Positions 4,837 through 39,044 of a stretch of 64,000 bases of DNA are shown piece after piece. How positions within the stretch are numbered: position 1 is the stretch's first letter; every line of letters starts with the position of its first letter. Source of the DNA: Morganella psychrotolerans (GTDB lineage: Bacteria > Pseudomonadota > Gammaproteobacteria > Enterobacterales > Enterobacteriaceae); the NCBI RefSeq assembly GCF_001676055.1, contig NZ_LZEX01000023.1, positions 62,001 to 126,000 of the forward strand, read 5' to 3'. The notes below the pieces were generated by a model that worked only from the letters and a program-made list of their open reading frames with translations, was not told the origin of the DNA and did no database searches. Position numbers and translations under genes: made by a program.

Positions 4837-5175
4837 TTGCTGTGGCGCGGTATGAATACGGATCTCCCCGCCTTCTGTCCGTACGGCAAAATGGGCAACA
4901 GAATAGGCGGCATCCTCAAGACACAAACCATCTGTTAAGCGAAAGTGCTGTTTTTTCAGCGGGCTGACAATCCACAACTCATTGTCATGTTCTGCGATTA
5001 GCCCGCGTGATAACACACTGGCTTTTGCAAAGGGGTCGATATTACTTAATGCAAAAATCTGGTCATCATTGTAAGGGCGAAACAGCGCAACCTGTTCACC
5101 ATTTACCAGTGCACAAACGCCGGTTCCGGGCGTGATATCACTAACCTGACATACTGTTATCCAGTGGCTCATCAT
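4834..5175 (-). CDS. nirD: Nitrite reductase (NADH) small subunit
   Basis: A 113-residue Rieske-like protein, the small subunit of the cytoplasmic NADH-dependent siroheme nitrite reductase NirBD, which reduces nitrite to ammonia. The fold is recognisable from VCALVNGEQVALFR, FALSNIDPFAKASVLSRGL and the C-terminal EGGEIRIHTA. NirD proteins normally lack the Rieske cluster ligands, and this one has no CxH pairs. The start codon overlaps the nirB stop (TAATG). No nirC follows, which differs from the E. coli order. Confidence 0.93.
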   Translation of the reverse strand: MMSHWITVCQVSDITPGTGVCALVNGEQVALFRPYNDDQIFALSNIDPFAKASVLSRGLIAEHDNELWIVSPLKKQHFRLTDGLCLEDAAYSVAHFAVRTEGGEIRIHTAPQQ

Positions 5176-7714
5176 TACTCCTCCCCGATAAGTGTTACGG
5201 CTATCCGCTCTTCAGGACGGGCCGGGCGATGTTGTAAGCGCTCACTAACTATTTGTACATCCGGATCCGGCAGCGGGCTGTTAATAAAGTGATTAAAGCG
5301 CTGACGTGCGTGCGGGTTATCCACCGTTTCCTGCCATTCGCAGATGACTTTTTTGCGCAGATGGGTCAGCTCCTGCTCCAGCTGTGCATTCAGACCCAGT
5401 GTGTCGCTGACAATCACATCGCGCAGATAATCAATGCCACCCTCCAGGCTTTCAAGCCAGGTGGATGTCCGGTTCAGTTTGTCCGCGGTGCGGATATAAA
5501 ACATCATAAACCGGTCGATATAATTTATCAGTGTTTCTTTATCGAGATCGGCCATCAGCAGATCGCCGTGACGTGGTTTCATGCCGCCGTTACCGCAGAC
5601 ATACAGATTCCAGCCTTTATCTGTGGCAATAATCCCGATATCTTTTCCCTGTGCTTCTGAGCATTCGCGGGTGCAGCCGGAGATACCAAACTTCATTTTA
5701 TGCGGTGTGCGGATGCCTTTATAGCGGTGTTCGAGTTCAACACCCAGTCCGGTACTGTCCCCGACACCAAAGCGGCACCAGGTCGACCCGACACAGGTTT
5801 TTGCCATACGCAGTGCTTTGGCGTAGGCATGTCCGGTTTCAAACCCGGCAGCAATCAGTTTCTCCCAGATAGCCGGAAGATCCTGCTTATGCGCACCAAA
5901 CATGGCCAGACGCTGAGAGCCGGTAATTTTGGTGTATAAATTATATTCCTGTGCAATGGTACCGACAGCAAGCAGGCCTGCCGGGGTGATTTCTCCGCCC
6001 GGTGAACGGGGGATCACGGAATAGGTGCCGTCTTTTTGTATGTTGGCGAGAAAATTATCATTAGTATCCTGGAGGGAAACCAAATCATCCCGCAGGATAT
6101 AATCATTCCAGCAGGACGCCAGCAGAGAGCCGATAGTTGGTTTACATACTTCACAGCCATAACCTTCGCCGTATTTTTTCAGCAGATCATCAAAGGTCTT
6201 TATTTTTTCCACGCGGATCAGGTGATACAGCTCCTGGCGTGAATATGCAAAGTGTTCACAAAGATGATGATTAACCTCAATACCCAGGTTGGTCAGTTCA
6301 GCATTCAGTACCTGCGTTATCAGCGGAACACAGCCGCCGCAGCCGGTACCGGCTTTGGTTTGTGCTTTGATAGCCGCGACGGTTTGGCAGCCGTTTTGAA
6401 TGGCCTGAATAATGTCACCTTTGGTGACGTCAAAGCAGGAGCAAATCTGCGCGCTGTCCGGCAGGGATTCAACACCAATAGCCGGTTTATTGCCTGCATG
6501 GGCAGGTAAGATCAATGTATCCGGATTTTCCGGCAGTTCGATACGGTTGAGGGATAATTGCAGCAGATTACCGTAATCTTCAGTATCACCGACCAGCACT
6601 GCTCCCAGCAGATATTTATTGTCCTTACTGACAATAAGGCGTTTATACACCTCGTTAGCTTCATCCAGATAAATATAGCTGTGGCAACCCTCTTCATGGC
6701 CATGTGTATCGCCGATCCCGCCGACATCCACACCCAGCAGCTTCAGTTTTGCACTCATATCTGCGCCGGTAAACTGATTATCATTGCCCAGCAGACTGTC
6801 AACCGCGACCTGTGCCATTTTATAGCCCGGGGCAACCAGCCCGTAGGTTCTGCCGTGCCATGATGCACATTCACCGATGGCATAGACATCCGGATCAGAG
6901 GTCTGACACTGGTTATTAATCACCAGACCGCCGCGCTCGGCAACAATCAGCCCGCACTGACGGGCAAGTTTATCCCTTGGGCGGATCCCGGTGGAAAACA
7001 CCACAAAATCGGCTTCCAGTGATGAGCCGTCGGCAAAGTGCAGAATTTTGCGGCTGTTGCCGCTGTCTGAACGGGTAATTTCGGCGGTGTTTTTACGGGT
7101 GTGAACGGTTACACCCATCCGCTCAATTTTTTGTTTCAGTTGCTCACCACCGAGCGCATCAAGCTGCTCTGCCATTAACACCGGTGAGAATTCGATTACA
7201 TGGGTTTCAATACCTAAATTTTTCAGTGCTCCGGCGGCTTCCAGCCTAATAATCCGCCGCCGATAACCACACCTTTGCGGCTGCGGCGGGCGCAGGCTTC
7301 AATGGCATTCAGATCTTCTATCGTCCGGTAGACAAAACAGTCCTGAGTGTCATTGCCTTTGATAGGCGGCACCCACGGGTACGACCCGGTGGCAATCACT
7401 AATTTGTCGTAATGGACGGTGCGTCCGGTATTGGTGTGCAGCACTTTTTCCTGCCGGTTAATGGTGATTACCCGCTCACCGGTCAGTACGGCGATAGTGT
7501 GCTTTTCATAAAAACCGGGTTTAACGAGGGATAACTCTTCCGCCGTGTGATGGGAAAAGTAAGAGGAAAGATGCACCCGGTCATAGGCTACACGCGGCTC
7601 TTCACAAAAAACGGTAATGTCAAAATGTCCGCTTCCGGCTTTATCGGTAAGCTCTTCAATAAAGCGATGCCCCACCATGCCGTTACCGATTATCGCTAAC
7701 TTGACGTTGCTCAT
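5175..7714 (-). pseudogene. nirB: Nitrite reductase (NADH) large subunit, frameshifted
   Basis: Two adjacent reading frames together encode a full NirB of about 847 residues. The N-terminal part (7714 to about 7245) carries the FAD-binding IGNGMVGHRFIEEL and the second dinucleotide fold VVIGGGLLG. The C-terminal part (7244 to 5175) resumes with LEAAGALKNLG and contains the BFD-like [2Fe-2S] motif CSCFDV with CGGC, and the siroheme/[4Fe-4S] ligands CTRECSEAQG and CGNGG. Restoring one C near 7244-7246 (GGCTGG to GGCCTGG, coding strand) rejoins the frames. All catalytic motifs are intact otherwise, so this is either a very recent inactivation or a sequencing error. An FNR site lies upstream. Confidence 0.9.
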
Positions 7715-29122: not shown

Positions 29123-31084
29123 ATGACACCAACTAAATTTGTACTTGCACCATTGGCCGCCATGGTGATTTTACCGCTTTATGTGCAGGCGAAAACAGCG
29201 GAGAAAAATGACACGATTGTTGTCAATGCCTCGACGATTGAATCGACAAAAGTGAATGAACTGGCAGATTACGGTAATAAACTGCATGTTATCACCCGTG
29301 ATGAAATAGAACGCTCCGGTCCTTCTTCCGATTTAAATCAGGTATTACAGCAATATGTTCCCGGTTTATATGTCTCTATGGGACAGGGGGCTTTCGGGTA
29401 CGGGAAATATTCTTTTATGGGCGGACGCCCGGATGACACCTTAATTTTAATTGATGGTGTCCGTCTGAATAACCGCCTGTTCGGCGGGATCTATCTTGAT
29501 ACTCTGCCGCTGGTCGCCATTGATCGTATTGAAATTCTTCAGGGCGCGCAAAGCCTCTCTTTCGGGACTCAGGCAATCAGCGGTGTGATTAATATTGTGA
29601 CGAAAAAACCCACCTCTGAAACCCTGACCGGTGAATTCAGTGTCGGCGCTGACACAGACAAAGGTCGCTCCGGGGAAGGTTATGTTCAGAAAGCGTTTGA
29701 TAATGACATTGGCAAAACCGGGCTGATGGCGTGGGTCAGCCGTCATAAATCTGAGGGCTATCAGCCATACCGTGACCGTGATTACAACGGCAAAATCGGT
29801 GATAAAAATCGCGGCTATGACCTGACCTCTGTCGGGATGCAGGTTACACAAGTCTTTGCGGATAAAGCACAATTACAGGCATTTTATCAATATACCGATG
29901 CCGATCTGGATATGGTGTCTCCGAATAATCACCGCAGCGCGGTAAACAAGCGCGACCATCATCTCGGCACGCTCTCTTTCGAGCACTTTCTGACCGCTGA
30001 CACCAGTTATTCCCTGCGCGCACACATGAATGACTGGAACACCCGCTACGATCGCAGCCGGTATCTGGCGAACGGCTCAGTCGAGATCCAAAATGATGAT
30101 TCATATTAGGGATTCCGTGATTACGGCATCCAGGCACAGTTAAAAAGCTATCTGTTTGGTGAGAATGAATTTGTCTTAGGCTCTGATAACCAGTGGTATA
30201 AGGGCAAAGATGAGGTGATGAAAATTGAGACGGATACAGCAAAAGCCAATGCGCTGTATTTACAGGTGCGCCCGGCGGTAGCCGCTCTTCCTGAATTAAA
30301 ACCGAGCCTGGGTGTGCGCTATGAACGCTTTGAGGGCGGACAGGACGCAACTGTCTGGATGGCAAGCACGGCGTATGAAGCGAGCGATAACCTGACACTG
30401 CGCGGGCAGGTAGGAACAGCCTTCAAACTGCCGAATGCAGAGCAGTTATTTGTCAGTGATGCGGATAAACAGGTAGTGGGCGATCCGGATCTGAAAGCGG
30501 AAAAAAGTAAGAATATTGAAGCCGGTTTTGATTATCTGACGCAGTGGGAAAACGGCGGAGCGTGGCAGTTTGGTGCCACAGGATATGCCCGCGAAATCAA
30601 TGATCTGATTACAACTGTTAAAGTCGGGAAAGTCGACCGCTGGGTTAATGGTGACGGTGAAATCCGCACCAAAGGCGTGGTGCTCGCTACCAAGCTGAAT
30701 TTCAATGAAGAGTGGTATGTCTCCGCAGATATGACCCGCAACTGGCTCGATACCAAAAACGGCGCAACACTCAATGATATTCCGGATTTCTTCACCCGCG
30801 GGCGCGTTGGTTATGATGCGCCGGCGAAACAGTGGGGCGCAGAGCTGTCCACCCGCTATGTCGGTGAGCTGAAATCCGGCGGGGTATCTTACGGTCATTA
30901 CACCGTGTTTGATGCCGGTGCGTATCTGTATGCCGACCACGCACAGCAGCACAAATTCTCTCTGTTAGTGGAAAACCTGCTTAACCGCGATTACCCGGCA
31001 GGGCTGACCAGCAACGGTCTGGTCAAAGTGGATAACCTGGGGCGTCCGTTAACCGCAGAACTGCGCTATACCTACCGTTTCTGA
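29123..31084 (+). pseudogene. TonB-dependent outer-membrane receptor, interrupted by an amber codon
   Basis: One continuous frame of about 654 codons encodes a TonB-dependent receptor but contains TAG at 30107-30109, so only 328 residues are made without readthrough. Visible are a signal peptide, the TonB box DTIVVNAS, a plug domain (VITRDEIERSGPSSDLNQVL, ILIDGVRLN, IEILQGAQSLSFG) and a 22-strand-type barrel ending in the usual aromatic residue (ELRYTYRF). The frame after the stop continues with perfect homology-like barrel sequence, so the break is recent, or the TAG is a read error. Downstream genes suggest import of an iron complex or corrinoid; a Fur-like site favours iron. Confidence 0.88.
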
Positions 31085-33673: not shown

Positions 33674-34696
33674 ATGTTAAATCTCAGATTCTTTAAAGCA
33701 GACCCGTCCACATTTGTTATTAAATCCGTCAACGGCACTATCCGTCATCAGGGAAAAGGACTGAGTTTCTGGTACAACACGGCGACAACCTCTGTTGCTG
33801 CGTTGCCGCTTAATGCTCAGGAAACACCGTTTATCTTTAATTTTCAGACTGCCGATTTTCAGAGCCTGCGGGTGCAGGGACAGCTCTCATTTCAGATAAG
33901 TTCGCCGGAAAAAACGGCCGGTGTGCTTAATTTCACACTGAATAAAGATGGCAAAACCTATGCTTCAGAAGACCCGATGAAACTGAGTGACCGGGTTGTC
34001 CGTGCCGCCCAGACCATCATTCAGGCCGAAATTCAGGCAACGCCTCTGCGCCGCGCGTTGTTACTCAGCCAGTCTCTTGTCGCCCTTGTGCAATCGCGTT
34101 TATCACAGCTGACCGCACTTGGGGCGCAGGGGCTGGCGGTACTGGATTTCTCTGTCACAGCTATTACGCCGACACCGGAAACGGCAAGAGCACTGGAAGC
34201 AGAAGCCCGCGAATCTCTGATGAAAGAAGCTGATGATGCTATTTATGCGCGGCGCAAATCCTCTGTTGAGCAGGAGCGGACCATCAAAGAAGCGGAGCTG
34301 GAGACTGACCTCTCTATACAGCAAAAGGAGCAGGAGATTGAAGAGGCCCGGCTGGAAAATGAACGCACATTGTTACGTGAACAGGCAGAAATGGCGCAGG
34401 AGCGGCTGGCTGCGGAGATTGGGGAAGAGGAGCAGCGCCGGACACTGGTTTCACTCAGTGCCGGGAATCAGCGGGTTCAGTCAGAGGCAGATGCATATTC
34501 CATTGAAACAAAAATGAAAGCATACCGTGAATTGCCGGTGGAGAATCTCAAAGCCCTGGCATTAAGCCGGATGGCACCGGAGCAATTGATGGCGATGGCA
34601 TTTGAATCCCTGGCACAGAACGCAGGAAAAATTGGTGAGCTGAATATTTCACCGGATATGTTCAGTCAGATGATGAAAAAAGGGAGCAAAGCATGA
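33674..34696 (+). CDS. SPFH-like coiled-coil protein linked to NrtR
   Basis: A 340-residue protein whose N-terminal about 170 residues look like an SPFH/band-7 domain (FVIKSVNGTIRHQGKGLSFW, VQGQLSFQIS). A highly charged coiled coil follows (about 175-265, many EQE/EEARLENE repeats). The compact C-terminal segment MAPEQLMAMAFESLAQNAGK is also seen in some flotillin-like proteins. Unlike stomatin and flotillin there is no N-terminal membrane helix, so it may be cytoplasmic. Its stop overlaps the start of the NAD-kinase-like gene (ATGA), so both are made together. Function unknown. Confidence 0.72.
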   Translation: MLNLRFFKADPSTFVIKSVNGTIRHQGKGLSFWYNTATTSVAALPLNAQETPFIFNFQTADFQSLRVQGQLSFQISSPEKTAGVLNFTLNKDGKTYASEDPMKLSDRVVRAAQTIIQAEIQATPLRRALLLSQSLVALVQSRLSQLTALGAQGLAVLDFSVTAITPTPETARALEAEARESLMKEADDAIYARRKSSVEQERTIKEAELETDLSIQQKEQEIEEARLENERTLLREQAEMAQERLAAEIGEEEQRRTLVSLSAGNQRVQSEADAYSIETKMKAYRELPVENLKALALSRMAPEQLMAMAFESLAQNAGKIGELNISPDMFSQMMKKGSKA

Positions 34697-35619
34697 GTAT
34701 AAAAGAAGATGTCCGCGTGGTGCTGGTCACCCGGAAAACCCGTTTGCAGGAACTGACCGAACGTTTCAATACCTGGCCGCAGGCAAAATTTTATCTGGAA
34801 CACAGCGGGGTTTCAGTCAGTGATTATCTTGCGGAGCATGACCGTTATCAGGCGCAACTGACACAAGCAAAACAGATCCTGCAACCCTTTGGTCACTTCC
34901 AGTTGCTTGAGCGCACATTGCTGCCGGGCTATCAGTTTTCTGCCCGTGATCTTGTGGTGGTGATAGGCCAGGACGGGCTGGTCGCCAATACACTGAAATA
35001 TCTGAGTGGTCAGCCGGTTATTGCAGTTAACCCTGATCCGCAGCGCTGGGACGGGCCGCTACTGCCTTTTGAGCTGGCGCAATTACAGGATGTGGTGACG
35101 AACACGCTGAACGGAAAAATGGACTGGAAAACCCTGAGTTTTGCACAGGCAACCACCAATGACGGGCAGCAGATGCTGGCGGTAAACGATTTATTTATCG
35201 GACCTAAAAGTCACACCTCAGCGCGTTATGTTCTGAGCTGGTCAGGTAACAGTGAAACACAGTCCTCTTCCGGGATTATTGTTTCGACCAGTCTCGGATC
35301 AACCGGCTGGCTGCAATCCATTCTTGCCGGTGCGCTGGGTGTGACCGGTCAGGTATCTCACCCGCTACAGCAGGGGGTTAGCTGGTCAGATAAGCGGCTG
35401 CGCTTCAGTGTGCGTGAGCCGTTTCCCGGACGCACGACCGGCACCAGGCTGGTATTCGGTACAATTGATGATACCGCTCCGCTGCAACTGGAATCGCTGA
35501 TGCCGGAGAACGGCGTGATTTTCTCCGATGGCATCGAATCTGATTTTCTGCACTTTAATGCAGGCTGTATTGTCACTATCGGGACAGCAAAAACAGAAGG
35601 GCGGCTGATATGGGGATGA
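34693..35619 (+). CDS. NAD-kinase-fold protein with altered GGDGT motif
   Basis: A 308-residue protein resembling NAD kinase. The catalytic GGDGT motif reads GQDGL (VVVIGQDGLVANTLKYL, near residue 92), keeping the aspartate. The second conserved loop reads STSLGSTGWLQSILAGALG, with the GSTG core. Divergent motifs make plain NAD phosphorylation uncertain; it may act on another nucleotide or sugar. It is translationally coupled to the SPFH-like gene under putative NrtR control. Its last 15 codons and stop lie in the 48-bp direct repeat that recurs at 36467-36514. Confidence 0.7.
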   Translation: MSIKEDVRVVLVTRKTRLQELTERFNTWPQAKFYLEHSGVSVSDYLAEHDRYQAQLTQAKQILQPFGHFQLLERTLLPGYQFSARDLVVVIGQDGLVANTLKYLSGQPVIAVNPDPQRWDGPLLPFELAQLQDVVTNTLNGKMDWKTLSFAQATTNDGQQMLAVNDLFIGPKSHTSARYVLSWSGNSETQSSSGIIVSTSLGSTGWLQSILAGALGVTGQVSHPLQQGVSWSDKRLRFSVREPFPGRTTGTRLVFGTIDDTAPLQLESLMPENGVIFSDGIESDFLHFNAGCIVTIGTAKTEGRLIWG

Positions 35620-35622
35620 AAT
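35575..35622 (+). repeat. 48-bp direct repeat, copy 1 (3' end of NAD-kinase-like gene)
   Basis: It begins ACTATCGGGACAGCAAAAAC and includes the stop codon of the NAD-kinase-like gene (TGGGGATGA). It matches 36467-36514 at all but two positions. The two copies enclose the toxin-antitoxin module. Confidence 0.9.
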
Positions 35623-35642
35623 TGTCTGCCGCTTCTGTTGTA

Positions 35643-35941
35643 CTACAAATGGAGCGCTATTTTTTTCCCGTCCGGTAAGGTGATATCAAGAGCCAGTTCA
35701 CCGCCGAGTGCTTTCACATAGCGTCTGAGAGTTGATAATTTAGGATCACTGCCTACCCGCTCCATTTTTGCCACCGCAGGCTGCCTGACACCCAGCTTAT
35801 TGCCAGCTGAGTCTGAGAGATCGCCAGTTCTTCGCGTAGTGTTGCCAGAGTCAGTTCACGGCGGATTTCTTCTGTTCTTTTTTCTACCCGCATCCTGCTT
35901 TCAGGTGTGCGTTTTGCCAGCATTTCGTCTAACGTTGACAT
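35643..35941 (-). pseudogene. HigA-type antitoxin, frameshifted
   Basis: Two frames together encode a 99-residue XRE-family helix-turn-helix antitoxin. The first frame gives MSTLDEMLAKRTPESRMRVE to AISQTQLA; the second continues NKLGVRQPAVAKMERVGSD to DITLPDGKKIALHL. One A is missing near 35800 (coding strand GCAATAAG for GCAAATAAG), and the frame then stops after 62 codons. The break falls in the DNA-recognition helix, so the product should not repress or fold normally. It overlaps the toxin stop by 13 bp, toxin first, as in HigBA. A base-calling error in the A run is possible. Confidence 0.85.
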
Positions 35942-36282
35942 GTTTCCTCCAAATGCGCTTTATACTCTGTCTCAGCCTCTTTTATCAGCTTCTTATAGAA
36001 GCGTTTTTCATTCTGACCTTTTTTATTTCCTGCACATAAAATAACTGCTCTGCGGATAGGATCGAAAGCAAAACAGATCCTTACCGGGTGCCCGGAAACC
36101 TGTATTCTGAGCTCTTTTATGTTGCAATAGCAGGAGCCGGTTAGTGTATCAACCAGCGGACGACCAAGATGAGGTCCGTCTTCTCTCAGAATACAAAGGA
36201 TAGCTAATATTTCTTCCTGTACGGCATTCGGCTGTATTTCAAACCAGTTATCGAAATGCACTCTCGTTATGATAGACCACAT
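35929..36282 (-). CDS. HigB/RelE-type toxin
   Basis: A 117-residue RelE-superfamily mRNA interferase of the HigB/Gp49-like group. It starts MWSIITRVHFDNWFEIQ (ATG at 36282; an ATG four codons earlier is possible). The family block HLGRPLVDTLTGSCYCNIKE precedes LRIQVSGHPVRICFAFDP, AVILCAGNKKGQNEKRFYKK and the C-terminal AETEYKAHLEE. The gene appears intact while the overlapping antitoxin is frameshifted, which is unusual for a toxic protein. Two similar palindromes lie just upstream. Confidence 0.85.
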   Translation of the reverse strand: MWSIITRVHFDNWFEIQPNAVQEEILAILCILREDGPHLGRPLVDTLTGSCYCNIKELRIQVSGHPVRICFAFDPIRRAVILCAGNKKGQNEKRFYKKLIKEAETEYKAHLEETCQR

Positions 36283-36292
36283 CGGAGAAGCC

Positions 36293-36329
36293 ATAACCTC
36301 TGAGTTATATATTATAACCCTGAGGTTAT
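36293..36329. promoter_or_regulatory. Paired palindromic operators of the toxin-antitoxin module
   Basis: ATAACCTCTGAGTTAT (36293-36308) and ATAACCCTGAGGTTAT (36314-36329) are two related 16-bp palindromes, the second nearly perfect. They abut the toxin start on the minus strand. They are the expected autoregulatory sites bound by antitoxin or complex. Confidence 0.7.
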
Positions 36330-36466
36330 AAAATGAGTATCAAAAATAAATCTGATTAACTAACATTATTAATTAATCTAATTTATTAACAATGAGTTAG
36401 GTTTCTATTTTAGATTTATTATTTTGGTGAAGCTATACCGGAAAACGTAGTCAGAGGTGGATTTTA

Positions 36467-36514
36467 ACTATCGGGACAGCAAAAACAGAAGGGCGGCTGG
36501 TATGGGGATAAAAT
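36467..36514 (+). repeat. 48-bp direct repeat, copy 2 (displaced 3' end of NAD-kinase-like gene)
   Basis: A second copy of the last codons and stop (TGGGGATAA) of the NAD-kinase-like gene, 892 bp downstream of copy 1. It is followed directly by a terminator, so this is probably the original gene end, separated from the gene by the inserted module. Confidence 0.85.
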
Positions 36515-36520
36515 AACAAG

Positions 36521-36546
36521 AGGGACTTTAATTACGTAAAGTCCCT
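36521..36546. terminator. Bidirectional terminator
   Basis: AGGGACTTTA (36521-36530) and TAAAGTCCCT (36537-36546) form a perfect 10-bp stem with loop ATTACG. AT-rich tails lie on both sides. It lies between the displaced NAD-kinase-like gene end and the convergent microcin-like gene. Confidence 0.85.
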
Positions 36547-36579: not shown

Positions 36580-36801
36580 TTATTTACGGCTTGCTTTAGC
36601 CCATGATGAAATCAGGGAAACAGATTGATCTACGATAGTACCGATAGTTTCACCAAACTGTGAACCAATATCAGCACTCTGCTCTGTACCTCTGTAGTGG
36701 CCTACGATAGTACCAACACCGCGACCAATTAATGCACCTGCATCAGAATAGACACCGGCACCAGAAACCATATCAATTTCAATTACGCTTAATTGTTTCA
36801 T
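36580..36801 (-). CDS. Microcin-like peptide precursor 1 (double-glycine-type leader)
   Basis: A 73-residue peptide. Residues 1-15, MKQLSVIEIDMVSGA, match the leader of class II microcins and other bacteriocins exported by PCAT ABC transporters: a basic start, a Leu, Glu-Ile, Val-Ser-Gly-Ala. Cleavage after GA would leave about 58 residues, rich in Gly with GxxxG-like repeats (DAGALIGRGVGTIVGHY, IGSQFGETIGTIVDQ) and a basic tail. There is no cysteine. A paralogue lies 436 bp upstream on the same strand, with an identical AAGGATATAAA leader before the ATG. No transporter or immunity gene is recognisable nearby. It may be a bacteriocin or a signalling peptide. Confidence 0.7.
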   Translation of the reverse strand: MKQLSVIEIDMVSGAGVYSDAGALIGRGVGTIVGHYRGTEQSADIGSQFGETIGTIVDQSVSLISSWAKASRK

Positions 36802-37237
36802 TTTATATCCTTATTAAATTTCCATTATTAAAATACAGTACCCGCTATGTATCAGGTATATATTAACGCAACTGTTTTAAATCAATTCACAGAAGAGTAA
36901 GTTGCAAAAAATGCTAATCAGCATATATGAGGTTAAATAAAAGTAGATGCTTGTTTTTCATTTCTAACTTTAAGTATTAAAACCCATCATTAAATATACT
37001 ATCCTGGCGGTGATTAAGAATTCCATGTGTGATGACGATTGTATTTTTATAATAAAATCATGCTGATGTATAATTATATTTCATTAAGTAAAATGACGCG
37101 TGAAATAAATAATTAAGTTAAAGGTATTTAAGAAGAACTGATTACATCAGGAGGGAAATACGGAGAAGGGGCCGGTAATATCCGACCCCTGAGATAACAC
37201 GGTTATGGAACAAAGTATTTATAATACGCTGTGCATA
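36802..37237. other. AT-rich spacer between the two microcin-like genes
   Basis: About 436 bp with no convincing gene; the longest frames I could find are under 20 codons. A hairpin AGGGGCCGG / CCGACCCCT (37167-37190, one mismatch) lies 47 bp past the upstream peptide gene and may end its transcript. An immunity gene was looked for and not seen. Confidence 0.55.
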
Positions 37238-37462
37238 TTATTTTTTGATAGATTTAAACCATGAAGAAATCATAGAAATAGATTGGTCAACTGCAGTGCC
37301 GATAGTTTTACCAAAATCTAATCCAATCTGTGCGCTCTGCTGCTCAGTACCTTTGTAGTGACCAACAATACCACCGATAGCCTGACCAATTAATGTACCT
37401 GCATCAGAGAAAATACCTGCACCGGAAACTGCCTGAATTTCTGCTACGTTTAATTCTTTCAT
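37238..37462 (-). CDS. Microcin-like peptide precursor 2 (double-glycine-type leader)
   Basis: A 74-residue paralogue of the peptide encoded at 36580-36801. Leader MKELNVAEIQAVSGA, then a Gly-rich, Cys-free mature region (FSDAGTLIGQAIGGIVGHY, IGLDFGKTIGTAVDQ) ending SWFKSIKK. About 60 percent of positions agree between the two peptides by eye, with one extra Gln here after GTEQ. The pattern of leader plus Gly-rich amphipathic body is typical for pore-forming class II microcins or two-peptide bacteriocins. Ribosome site AAGGAT seven bases upstream. Confidence 0.7.
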   Translation of the reverse strand: MKELNVAEIQAVSGAGIFSDAGTLIGQAIGGIVGHYKGTEQQSAQIGLDFGKTIGTAVDQSISMISSWFKSIKK

Positions 37463-37629
37463 TTTATATCCTTATTAATTTTGTCCATTTTTAAGAGAAA
37501 TTGTTCTGTACGCACGCTGCATTACAGACAACACCTTATTGTCTGACTTAAAAAAATAACAAATCAATTGGTAAGAGTTGTTAATATAATAATAAGAAGA
37601 TTAAATACGTCACTGCCATATAATAAAAA

Positions 37630-37652
37630 AACCGGTGCTGAAAGGCACCGGT
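37630..37652 (-). terminator. Terminator after ghxP
   Basis: ACCGGTGC (37631-37638) and GCACCGGT (37645-37652) with loop TGAAAG, followed on the minus strand by TTTTTTTATTA. It ends the guaD-ghxP unit. Confidence 0.9.
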
Positions 37653-37676
37653 ATATATACATCACTCAGAATACGA

Positions 37677-39044
37677 TTAAATCGCCCAGCCACCCGCATA
37701 GAACGCGACTAACACAACAGCAATAATGACCGTACCTGCATTCAGCTTGCGCCACTCTTTGGCAACCAGACGCCCGATAACCAGGGTGACGTAACCCAGC
37801 ATGATCCCGGTAACAATATTACAGGTCAGCACGATAAAGACAGCGCACACAAGCCCGGACATGGCATCCACAGAGTCATCAAAATCCAGTTTTGATACAT
37901 TGCTCAGCATCAGCAGCCCGACATACATCAATGCCGGTGCGGTTGCATAAACCGGGATCAAATAAGACAGCGGTGAGAAAAAGAGAATAAGCAGGAACAA
38001 TACGCCGACAGTGACGGCAGTCAGTCCGGTTTTCCCGCCCGCCGCCGTACCGGCAGCAGATTCGATATAAACTGCCGCAGGCGATGCCCCGACACAGCCT
38101 GAGACAATGGAGCTGACGGAGTCCACTGTCAGCGCTTTGCCGCCATTGATAATCTGATTATCTTCATCCAGCAGATTTGCCTGACCGGCAACCGCGCGGA
38201 TAGTCCCGGTGGCATCGAAGACGGCGGTCATCACCAGCGCAAGAACACTCGGCAGAACGACAGGCTGTAATGCACCCATAATATCCATACTGAATATCAA
38301 GGAATTACCATTGTCATCATTCAGCGATGGCATCGCAATCAAACCCTGATAGGTAACATTCGGGTCGACTATCAGACCAATAACGGAGATCCCGACGATA
38401 ACCAGCAGGATCCCGCCGGGAACGTGCATTTTTTCAAGGCTGACAATCATTGCCAGCCCGATCAGCGCCATGGCAACCGGGAAAGAGGTAAATGCACCCA
38501 TTGCGACCGGCAGACCTTCCAGCGGGTTTTTGATAACCAGTCCGACGCCGTTTGCTGCGATCAGCAGCAGGAACAAGCCAATCCCTATCCCGGTGCCGTT
38601 TGCTATTCCCATCGGGAGATTACGCAGTATCCATTTTCGCACACCGGTGACAGAAATCAGGGTAAAAATAACCCCCATCAAAAACACAGCGCCGAGAGCG
38701 ACCGGGATACTGATATGCTGACCAAGCACCAGACTGAAGGCGGTAAAAGCGGTGAGGGAAATTGCACAGCCGATTGCCATCGGCAGATTTGCCCACAGCC
38801 CCATCATGATGGAACCGATACTGGCGACGAGACAGGTGGCGACAAAAATAGCACCCGGCGGGAAACCGGCTTTACCGAGCATGGAAGGTACGACGATGAC
38901 AGAATAGACCATGGCGAGGAACGTGGTCACGCCTGCCAGGATCTCCCGCTTGACACTGCTGCCGCGGGAGGAAATTTTAAAGTATGTATCAAGTGCGCCT
39001 TTAGCGGCGGCACCTGAACTATCCGGTGTTGTATTATCAGACAT
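37677..39044 (-). CDS. ghxP: Guanine/hypoxanthine permease (NCS2, GhxP-like)
   Basis: A 455-residue NCS2-family purine permease with 12-14 hydrophobic segments. Its sequence follows the GhxP branch rather than the AdeP branch. Examples are [60 protein letters not shown] and [20 protein letters not shown], the last two being the substrate-site regions. It sits 61 bp downstream of guanine deaminase, so guanine import and deamination are linked. The substrate is inferred from homology and context. Confidence 0.88.

Follow-up and report, generated by a model that had tools for sequence, protein, structure and literature searches.

Paralogous glycine-zipper, class II microcin-like precursors in Morganella psychrotolerans and a candidate CvaB-like exporter elsewhere in the genome

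Two small adjacent genes in Morganella psychrotolerans encode glycine-rich peptides with microcin-type leaders, and they raise the question of whether peptides encoded next to neither an export gene nor an immunity gene of known size can be secreted antibacterial agents. We analyzed the 64,000-nucleotide stretch of contig that holds them (hereafter the window), together with the source genome, other Morganella genomes, and relatives outside the genus. An earlier sequence-only reading of the window had described the two genes as a paralogous pair, and both open reading frames (ORFs) are indeed present on the minus strand, as precursors A and B, with 66% identity over the alignment (49/74 columns). 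The pair is flanked by a purine permease gene (37677-39044) and an NAD-kinase-like gene (34693-35619), and the features in between are listed in Table 1.

Table 1. Features of the precursor locus, in window coordinates.
Feature	Position	Strand	Description
Precursor A	37238..37462	-	74 aa: 15-aa leader ending VSGA and 59-aa Cys-free core
Precursor B	36580..36801	-	Paralogue of A; 73 aa, 58-aa core
Gap between A and B	36802..37237	-	436 bp; longest fully enclosed ORF 25 codons
Terminator-like hairpin with T-rich tail	36521..36546	-	Immediately past precursor B
Hydrophobic GTG ORF	37564..37665	-	33 codons; upstream of A
RelE/HigB-type toxin (35929-36294, PF05973) and broken-frame antitoxin	35643..36294	-	Outside the microcin system
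Insert	35566..36514		Between 57-nt direct repeats (35566-35622 and 36458-36514, 91%)

The scan for terminator-like sites gave four, against an expectation of 1.4 +/- 1.1, and promoter-like sites occurred at chance level (7 found, 7.9 expected). An imperfect 14-bp palindrome, ATGCTAATCAGCAT, at 36911-36924 precedes precursor B by about 110 bp and is a possible operator. The toxin-antitoxin insert previously noted beside the pair was seen as described, and the 57-nt repeat around it is a copy of the 3' end of the NAD-kinase-like gene. In the source genome the antitoxin has a broken frame, and in M. psychrotolerans DSM 17886 an intact one (99 aa); in M. morganii, the toxin gene is absent between the precursor and the NAD-kinase-like gene. 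Elsewhere in the window, two genes that we take, by inspection, to be nitrite-reductase-like (5175-7714) and TonB-dependent-receptor-like (29123-31084) are each split in two ORFs, and these split genes along with the broken antitoxin may reflect indel errors in the assembly.

Both leaders are 15 residues long, end in VSGA, and carry hydrophobic residues at positions -4, -7, and -12 (L-12, I-7, V-4), while glycine accounts for 16.9% and 17.2% of cores entirely free of cysteine. This leader spacing and a glycine share of 17% fit the proposed combination of a class II microcin-type leader and a Gly-rich core of 58-59 residues. The cores had also been described as ending in a basic tail: this tail is real, with short, charged or polar C termini (FKSIKK and AKASRK), but the cores themselves are not cationic, since their net charge at pH 7 is about +1 for A and 0 for B. 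Each core includes six GxxxG motifs, an excess over what composition alone would yield (p = 0.00025 and 0.0001, 20,000 shuffles). In A, these form one glycine zipper spanning G22-G26-G30-G34-G38 and a second at G47-G51-G55, and the GxxxGxxxG pattern is uninterrupted at positions 22 and 26, whereas all four such patterns in B enclose a charged residue. AlphaFold2, run on five Morganella sequences, predicted a helical hairpin with helices at 17-37 and 40-72 (mean pLDDT 82, pTM 0.65), two of the five models being poor (mean pLDDT 55). Among curated families, the Pfam MccV model (PF17508) gives A and B 16.9 and 16.4 bits, below its cut-off of 27, and all NCBIfam matches of the two sequences likewise fall under the cut-off.

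The sequence-only reading saw no export gene in the window, which is correct, and considered the pair to be without a known transporter, which does not hold at the scale of the genome. It had proposed looking there for a PCAT peptidase-transporter, and a CvaB-like PCAT is encoded with a membrane-fusion gene on the same contig, outside the window and 77.8 kb from the pair at the nearest. A genome without a PCAT would have counted against that reading, so this check turned out in its favor. The only match genome-wide to the C39 family (PF03412; G000:C23:178907-179293) sits in a 703-aa protein combining C39, ABC membrane, and ATPase domains, which shares ~69% identity with plasmid records annotated as CvaB. 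It carries the PCAT triad of Cys32, His105, and Asp121, in the numbering given for CvaB (PMC9746304).

Neighbors of the PCAT gene are an HlyD-type gene encoding 505 aa and a set of six divergent GG-leader precursors. These six peptides of 93-99 aa, located beside the PCAT outside the window (L007:10437-13921, on G000:C23), have glycine zippers of their own, and one of them, used as a query against plasmid records, returned no match. Since M. psychrotolerans has at least five counterpart genes and a pattern search of M. morganii finds a single one, this array has expanded in one lineage. Two further orphans with GA leaders are encoded elsewhere in the source genome, one of 72 aa on contig C42 and one of 90 aa on contig C2. 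Counting the pair, the six GG-leader peptides, and these two orphans, the genome has at least ten precursors of double-glycine type for a single PCAT, and encodes four of them away from it. Beside the 90-aa orphan lies a fragment of a membrane-fusion gene (L009:4170-4562), near an outer-membrane efflux gene; this is a decayed microcin locus, whose matching setting in M. psychrotolerans holds a PCAT and three precursors.

Within the genus, the peptide family is found in three of six genomes (G000, G004, and G005). This count leaves out G001 and G003, which have leader-only or OsmB-type matches, and G002 has none. Two of the matches from this genus search (L012 and L013) were dropped as OsmB-type glycine-zipper lipoproteins, an identity assigned by inspection. 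The same exporter locus, set between tyrosine phenol-lyase-type and PEP-mutase-type genes in G004 and G005 as well, is present in all three genomes with the family and in none of the three without, a co-occurrence that is suggestive in this small sample. Precursors and exporter are again far apart in G004 (79 kb) and G005 (64 kb). Among the genomes without the family, G001 and G003 each have one PCAT in a different setting, and G002 has no PCAT. At both exporter loci of G004, from M. psychrotolerans, the match to the membrane-fusion gene falls in two frames, which, unless due to sequencing error, argues against working export in that assembly.

Full-length relatives were found across Enterobacterales. 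At E 1e-3, a six-sequence profile (A2) found matches in 48 of the family's 392 genomes, distributed over 29 of 154 genera, a count that takes in leader-only hits and a few that are probably false (e.g., G333 and G387); order-wide, five of 394 genomes matched at E 1e-5, the source genome among them. A scan of genome contigs confirmed two of 92 candidate stretches, both of them Morganella loci. Cargo on mobile elements was considered and set aside: no match was obtained in 50,697 phage records, and only two of 72,556 plasmid records matched, one at E = 1. The relative on a Klebsiella michiganensis plasmid is 44% identical; HlyD and PCAT genes follow downstream of it, separated from it by insertion sequences. 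In one relative (L071), the leader ends in SDA instead of SGA.

Outside the genus, we examined 22 loci: one on a plasmid, and 21 taken from the 30 matches that reached E 1e-10 or better. PCAT and membrane-fusion genes were both present in the fetched stretch at 16 of these loci, and G323, with a PCAT at 9.5 kb, raises the number to 17/22. Three loci added later from another bacterial family (L091, L092, and L093) all present one or two peptides, a membrane-fusion gene, and a PCAT in a row, so that a PCAT lies within about 10 kb at 20 of 25 loci outside Morganella. This linkage does not extend to the source locus, 77.8 kb from its candidate exporter. Remote precursors are nevertheless not unique to the source window, since the genomes of the five loci lacking a nearby PCAT encode PCATs elsewhere (for L074, at the L073 locus). 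The peptide-exporter units of L091-L093 all sit between the same two large genes, of 1472-1473 aa and 603 aa; we take these, by inspection, to be MukB-like and, in two of the three stretches, LepA-like, respectively.

How A and B relate to known peptide systems can be assessed from these features. Class II microcins are characterized by leaders of 15-18 aa with a GG or GA end, hydrophobic residues at -4/-7/-12, and a glycine content of 12-26% (PMC11494933). A and B share the leader, the glycine content, the small size, and the presence in the genome of a PCAT with its triad and a membrane-fusion protein, and they lack a nearby PCAT, an adjacent immunity protein of 51-216 aa, and a match to a curated model. 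They resemble the class IIa microcins (MccV/CvaC, MccL, and others) in their 15-aa leader of the GA/GG type, Gly-rich core, and predicted CvaB/CvaA/TolC-type export, but differ in scoring below the Pfam MccV cut-off, in the distance to the exporter, and in having no adjacent immunity gene. Cdz-like systems consist of peptides of 60-151 aa with a G[G/A/S] leader end, zippers free of proline and charge, and a polar or charged C terminus (PMC5380434). Compared by description, Caulobacter CdzC and CdzD are similar to A and B in size, leader end, glycine zippers, C terminus, and predicted PCAT type I secretion; unlike them, A and B have no type I system within about 10 kb, and the zippers of B contain charged residues. 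Surface retention on the producer, contact-dependent killing, and CdzI-type immunity are further hallmarks of Cdz peptides. Another likeness by description is to the SM microcins of Serratia marcescens, several of which occur per genome, with some (SM020 and SM064 in SM39) encoded away from the PCAT (PMC13101503); inhibition zones were reported there for seven of 40 tested. Gram-positive class IIb peptides of the lactococcin G type also combine a double-glycine leader with GxxxG helices, but A is not a member of the corresponding model (NF038035), its match being confined to the leader (E 0.0064) and scoring 16.6 bits where the cut-off is 37. We thus file A and B as class II microcin-like in their predicted way of working, based on leader, composition, and exporter; several Cdz-like features are present as well. 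The pair had been presented as a possible family not described before, which is valid for the exact sequences only: glycine-zipper double-glycine peptides with PCATs are already known, both as Cdz-like peptides (PMC5380434) and among widespread class II microcins, with microcin hits reported in 6.7% of Morganellaceae species (PMC9746304). A literature search by title found no paper on M. psychrotolerans microcins.

In our assessment, A and B are probably glycine-zipper class II microcins, i.e., bacteriocin-like peptides, exported in trans and predicted to kill. The two would be made separately as precursors, and the 15-residue leader would be recognized and cut after Gly-Ala by the distant CvaB-like PCAT, giving cores predicted to begin with GIFSDAG and GVYSDAG. 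The core of 58-59 residues may then leave the cell by way of this PCAT, the HlyD-type membrane-fusion protein encoded beside it, and a TolC channel. Outside the cell, the glycine-zipper helices would pack together, and the cores would probably insert into the envelope of competitors, singly or mixed with the six GG-leader peptides. Export in trans is known from other cases: some S. marcescens SM39 microcins lie apart from the PCAT locus (PMC13101503), and two microcin pairs use one export system in common (PMC9746304).

Immunity genes bear on a killing role. Verified immunity proteins range from 51 to 216 aa (PMC9746304), and, with A, B, and the permease set aside, a single ORF between 36380 and 37680 reaches 51 aa; it is 52 aa long and has no hydrophobic segment. 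The earlier observation that no immunity gene is visible in the window is thus upheld, there being no adjacent membrane-like ORF of verified immunity size; the 33-codon GTG ORF is smaller than this range and could still be a candidate, and an immunity gene that is shorter or lies farther away may exist. The scan was controlled on the microcin V locus, where cvi overlaps cvaC: a Shine-Dalgarno filter missed cvi and was abandoned, and the scan without it recovered cvi. Among the relatives, a count of ORF families in at least three loci and beyond single genera left nothing that recurs across genera apart from the precursors, the exporter genes, and frames antisense to them. The compact loci of the other bacterial family similarly contain no further conserved ORF beyond one or two peptides, the membrane-fusion gene, and the PCAT.

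These observations are all consistent with the chief rival to the microcin interpretation, namely that the same PCAT exports peptides that are not weapons, whose zippers self-assemble at or near the cell surface for a matrix, adhesion, or signaling function, in which case an immunity gene would be unnecessary. Such roles have parallels in the double-glycine peptides reported as required for biofilms in Synechococcus elongatus (PMC4997328) and in the surface aggregates formed by CdzC (PMC5380434). Against this, immunity genes are small, variable, and often overlooked (PMC9746304, PMC13101503), and a hydrophobic ORF of at least 45 aa lies within 800 bp in 16 of 25 entries (with none in the other nine), some of which may be real immunity genes. 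The patchy presence of the family and its paralogue turnover in the genus also suit weapons better, and on balance we regard a surface or signaling role as unlikely. Given the 16 entries with a hydrophobic ORF nearby, we make no claim of an immunity-free family, even if the absence of an immunity gene in some relatives is plausible. As a tentative and rather doubtful proposal, the minimal unit of the family could be one or more peptides, a membrane-fusion protein, and a PCAT, with no dedicated immunity and with precursors sometimes tens of kb from a shared exporter; it would then represent either a weapon with built-in self-tolerance (e.g., through a target-cell receptor or through self-assembly) or secreted surface-assembly peptides that have been counted as antibiotics.

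The arrangement as a pair raises another possibility, put forward when the locus was first described: that A and B form an obligate two-peptide bacteriocin, similar to CdzC/CdzD or Gram-positive class IIb pairs. Both have GxxxG zippers, adjacent precursors also occur in M. psychrotolerans, and pairs are detected by pattern at seven of 25 outside loci (L064, L066, L074, L080, L081, L091, and L092). However, the pair partner is of a different, longer type at L064, L074, L080, and L081, whereas A and B are 66% alike, and each gene has a separate 5' region, B with its own terminator. One or no precursor-like gene is found near the match at 15 of 25 outside loci, by a pattern that misses some relatives (single-or-missed entries: L063, L065, L067, L069-L073, L075-L079, L082, L083, L026, and L093). 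Pairing is thus recurrent without being the norm. The same holds for Cdz-like systems, in which single-gene loci are the commonest and pairs make up 14% (PMC5380434).

The history of the duplication bears on the same point. The duplicated part consists of the gene bodies and ~20 nt before the start codons (143 nt at 79% and 120 nt at 73%). The corresponding site in M. psychrotolerans DSM 17886 holds the pair and the insert, with A 91% identical, while M. morganii FAM24679 has one copy, closer to B, between the same two genes and without the insert. Synonymous divergence (dS) between the A and B copies is 0.62, exceeding the 0.20 and 0.10 seen between orthologues, and is above 1 for both copies relative to M. 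morganii. The shared ribosome-site context had been read as the mark of a recent duplication, which these values contradict; judging by them, the duplication most likely occurred in the psychrotolerans lineage, before the source genome and DSM 17886 parted. With a duplication that is not recent and one copy in M. morganii, an obligate two-peptide system is improbable for the family: it could apply to this pair, but is not family-wide, and overall we consider it quite unlikely.

The remoteness of the exporter could alternatively mean that A and B are decayed orphan genes with neither export nor function, and the membrane-fusion remnant beside the 90-aa orphan illustrates that such loci do decay. 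Yet both frames are intact in two species, the leader residues are kept, and the exporter is intact in the source genome. Compared with the M. psychrotolerans orthologues, A has a dN/dS of 0.24 and B one of 0.18, estimated by NG86 only and from few differences (17/222 nt and 8/219 nt, respectively), so both genes look to be under purifying selection, and decay appears very improbable. Least credible of all is that A and B have been mistaken for microcins and are glycine-zipper lipoproteins or envelope proteins of the OsmB or YiaD type, since the weak matches pointing that way (NF053611, E 0.013 and 0.019; NF007830, E 0.055; PF13488, E 0.25 and 0.65) are far under cut-off, the sequences have no lipobox or cysteine, and their relatives lie beside PCAT genes.

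For this orphan pair, a plausible exporter is available within the source genome itself, which makes the pair testable at once. The case also shows that searches limited to PCAT-adjacent genes miss exportable peptides, here four of at least ten precursors. If the family is truly without immunity genes, secreted glycine-zipper peptides would split into weapons and something else, a distinction that the microcin and Cdz literature has left as a question.
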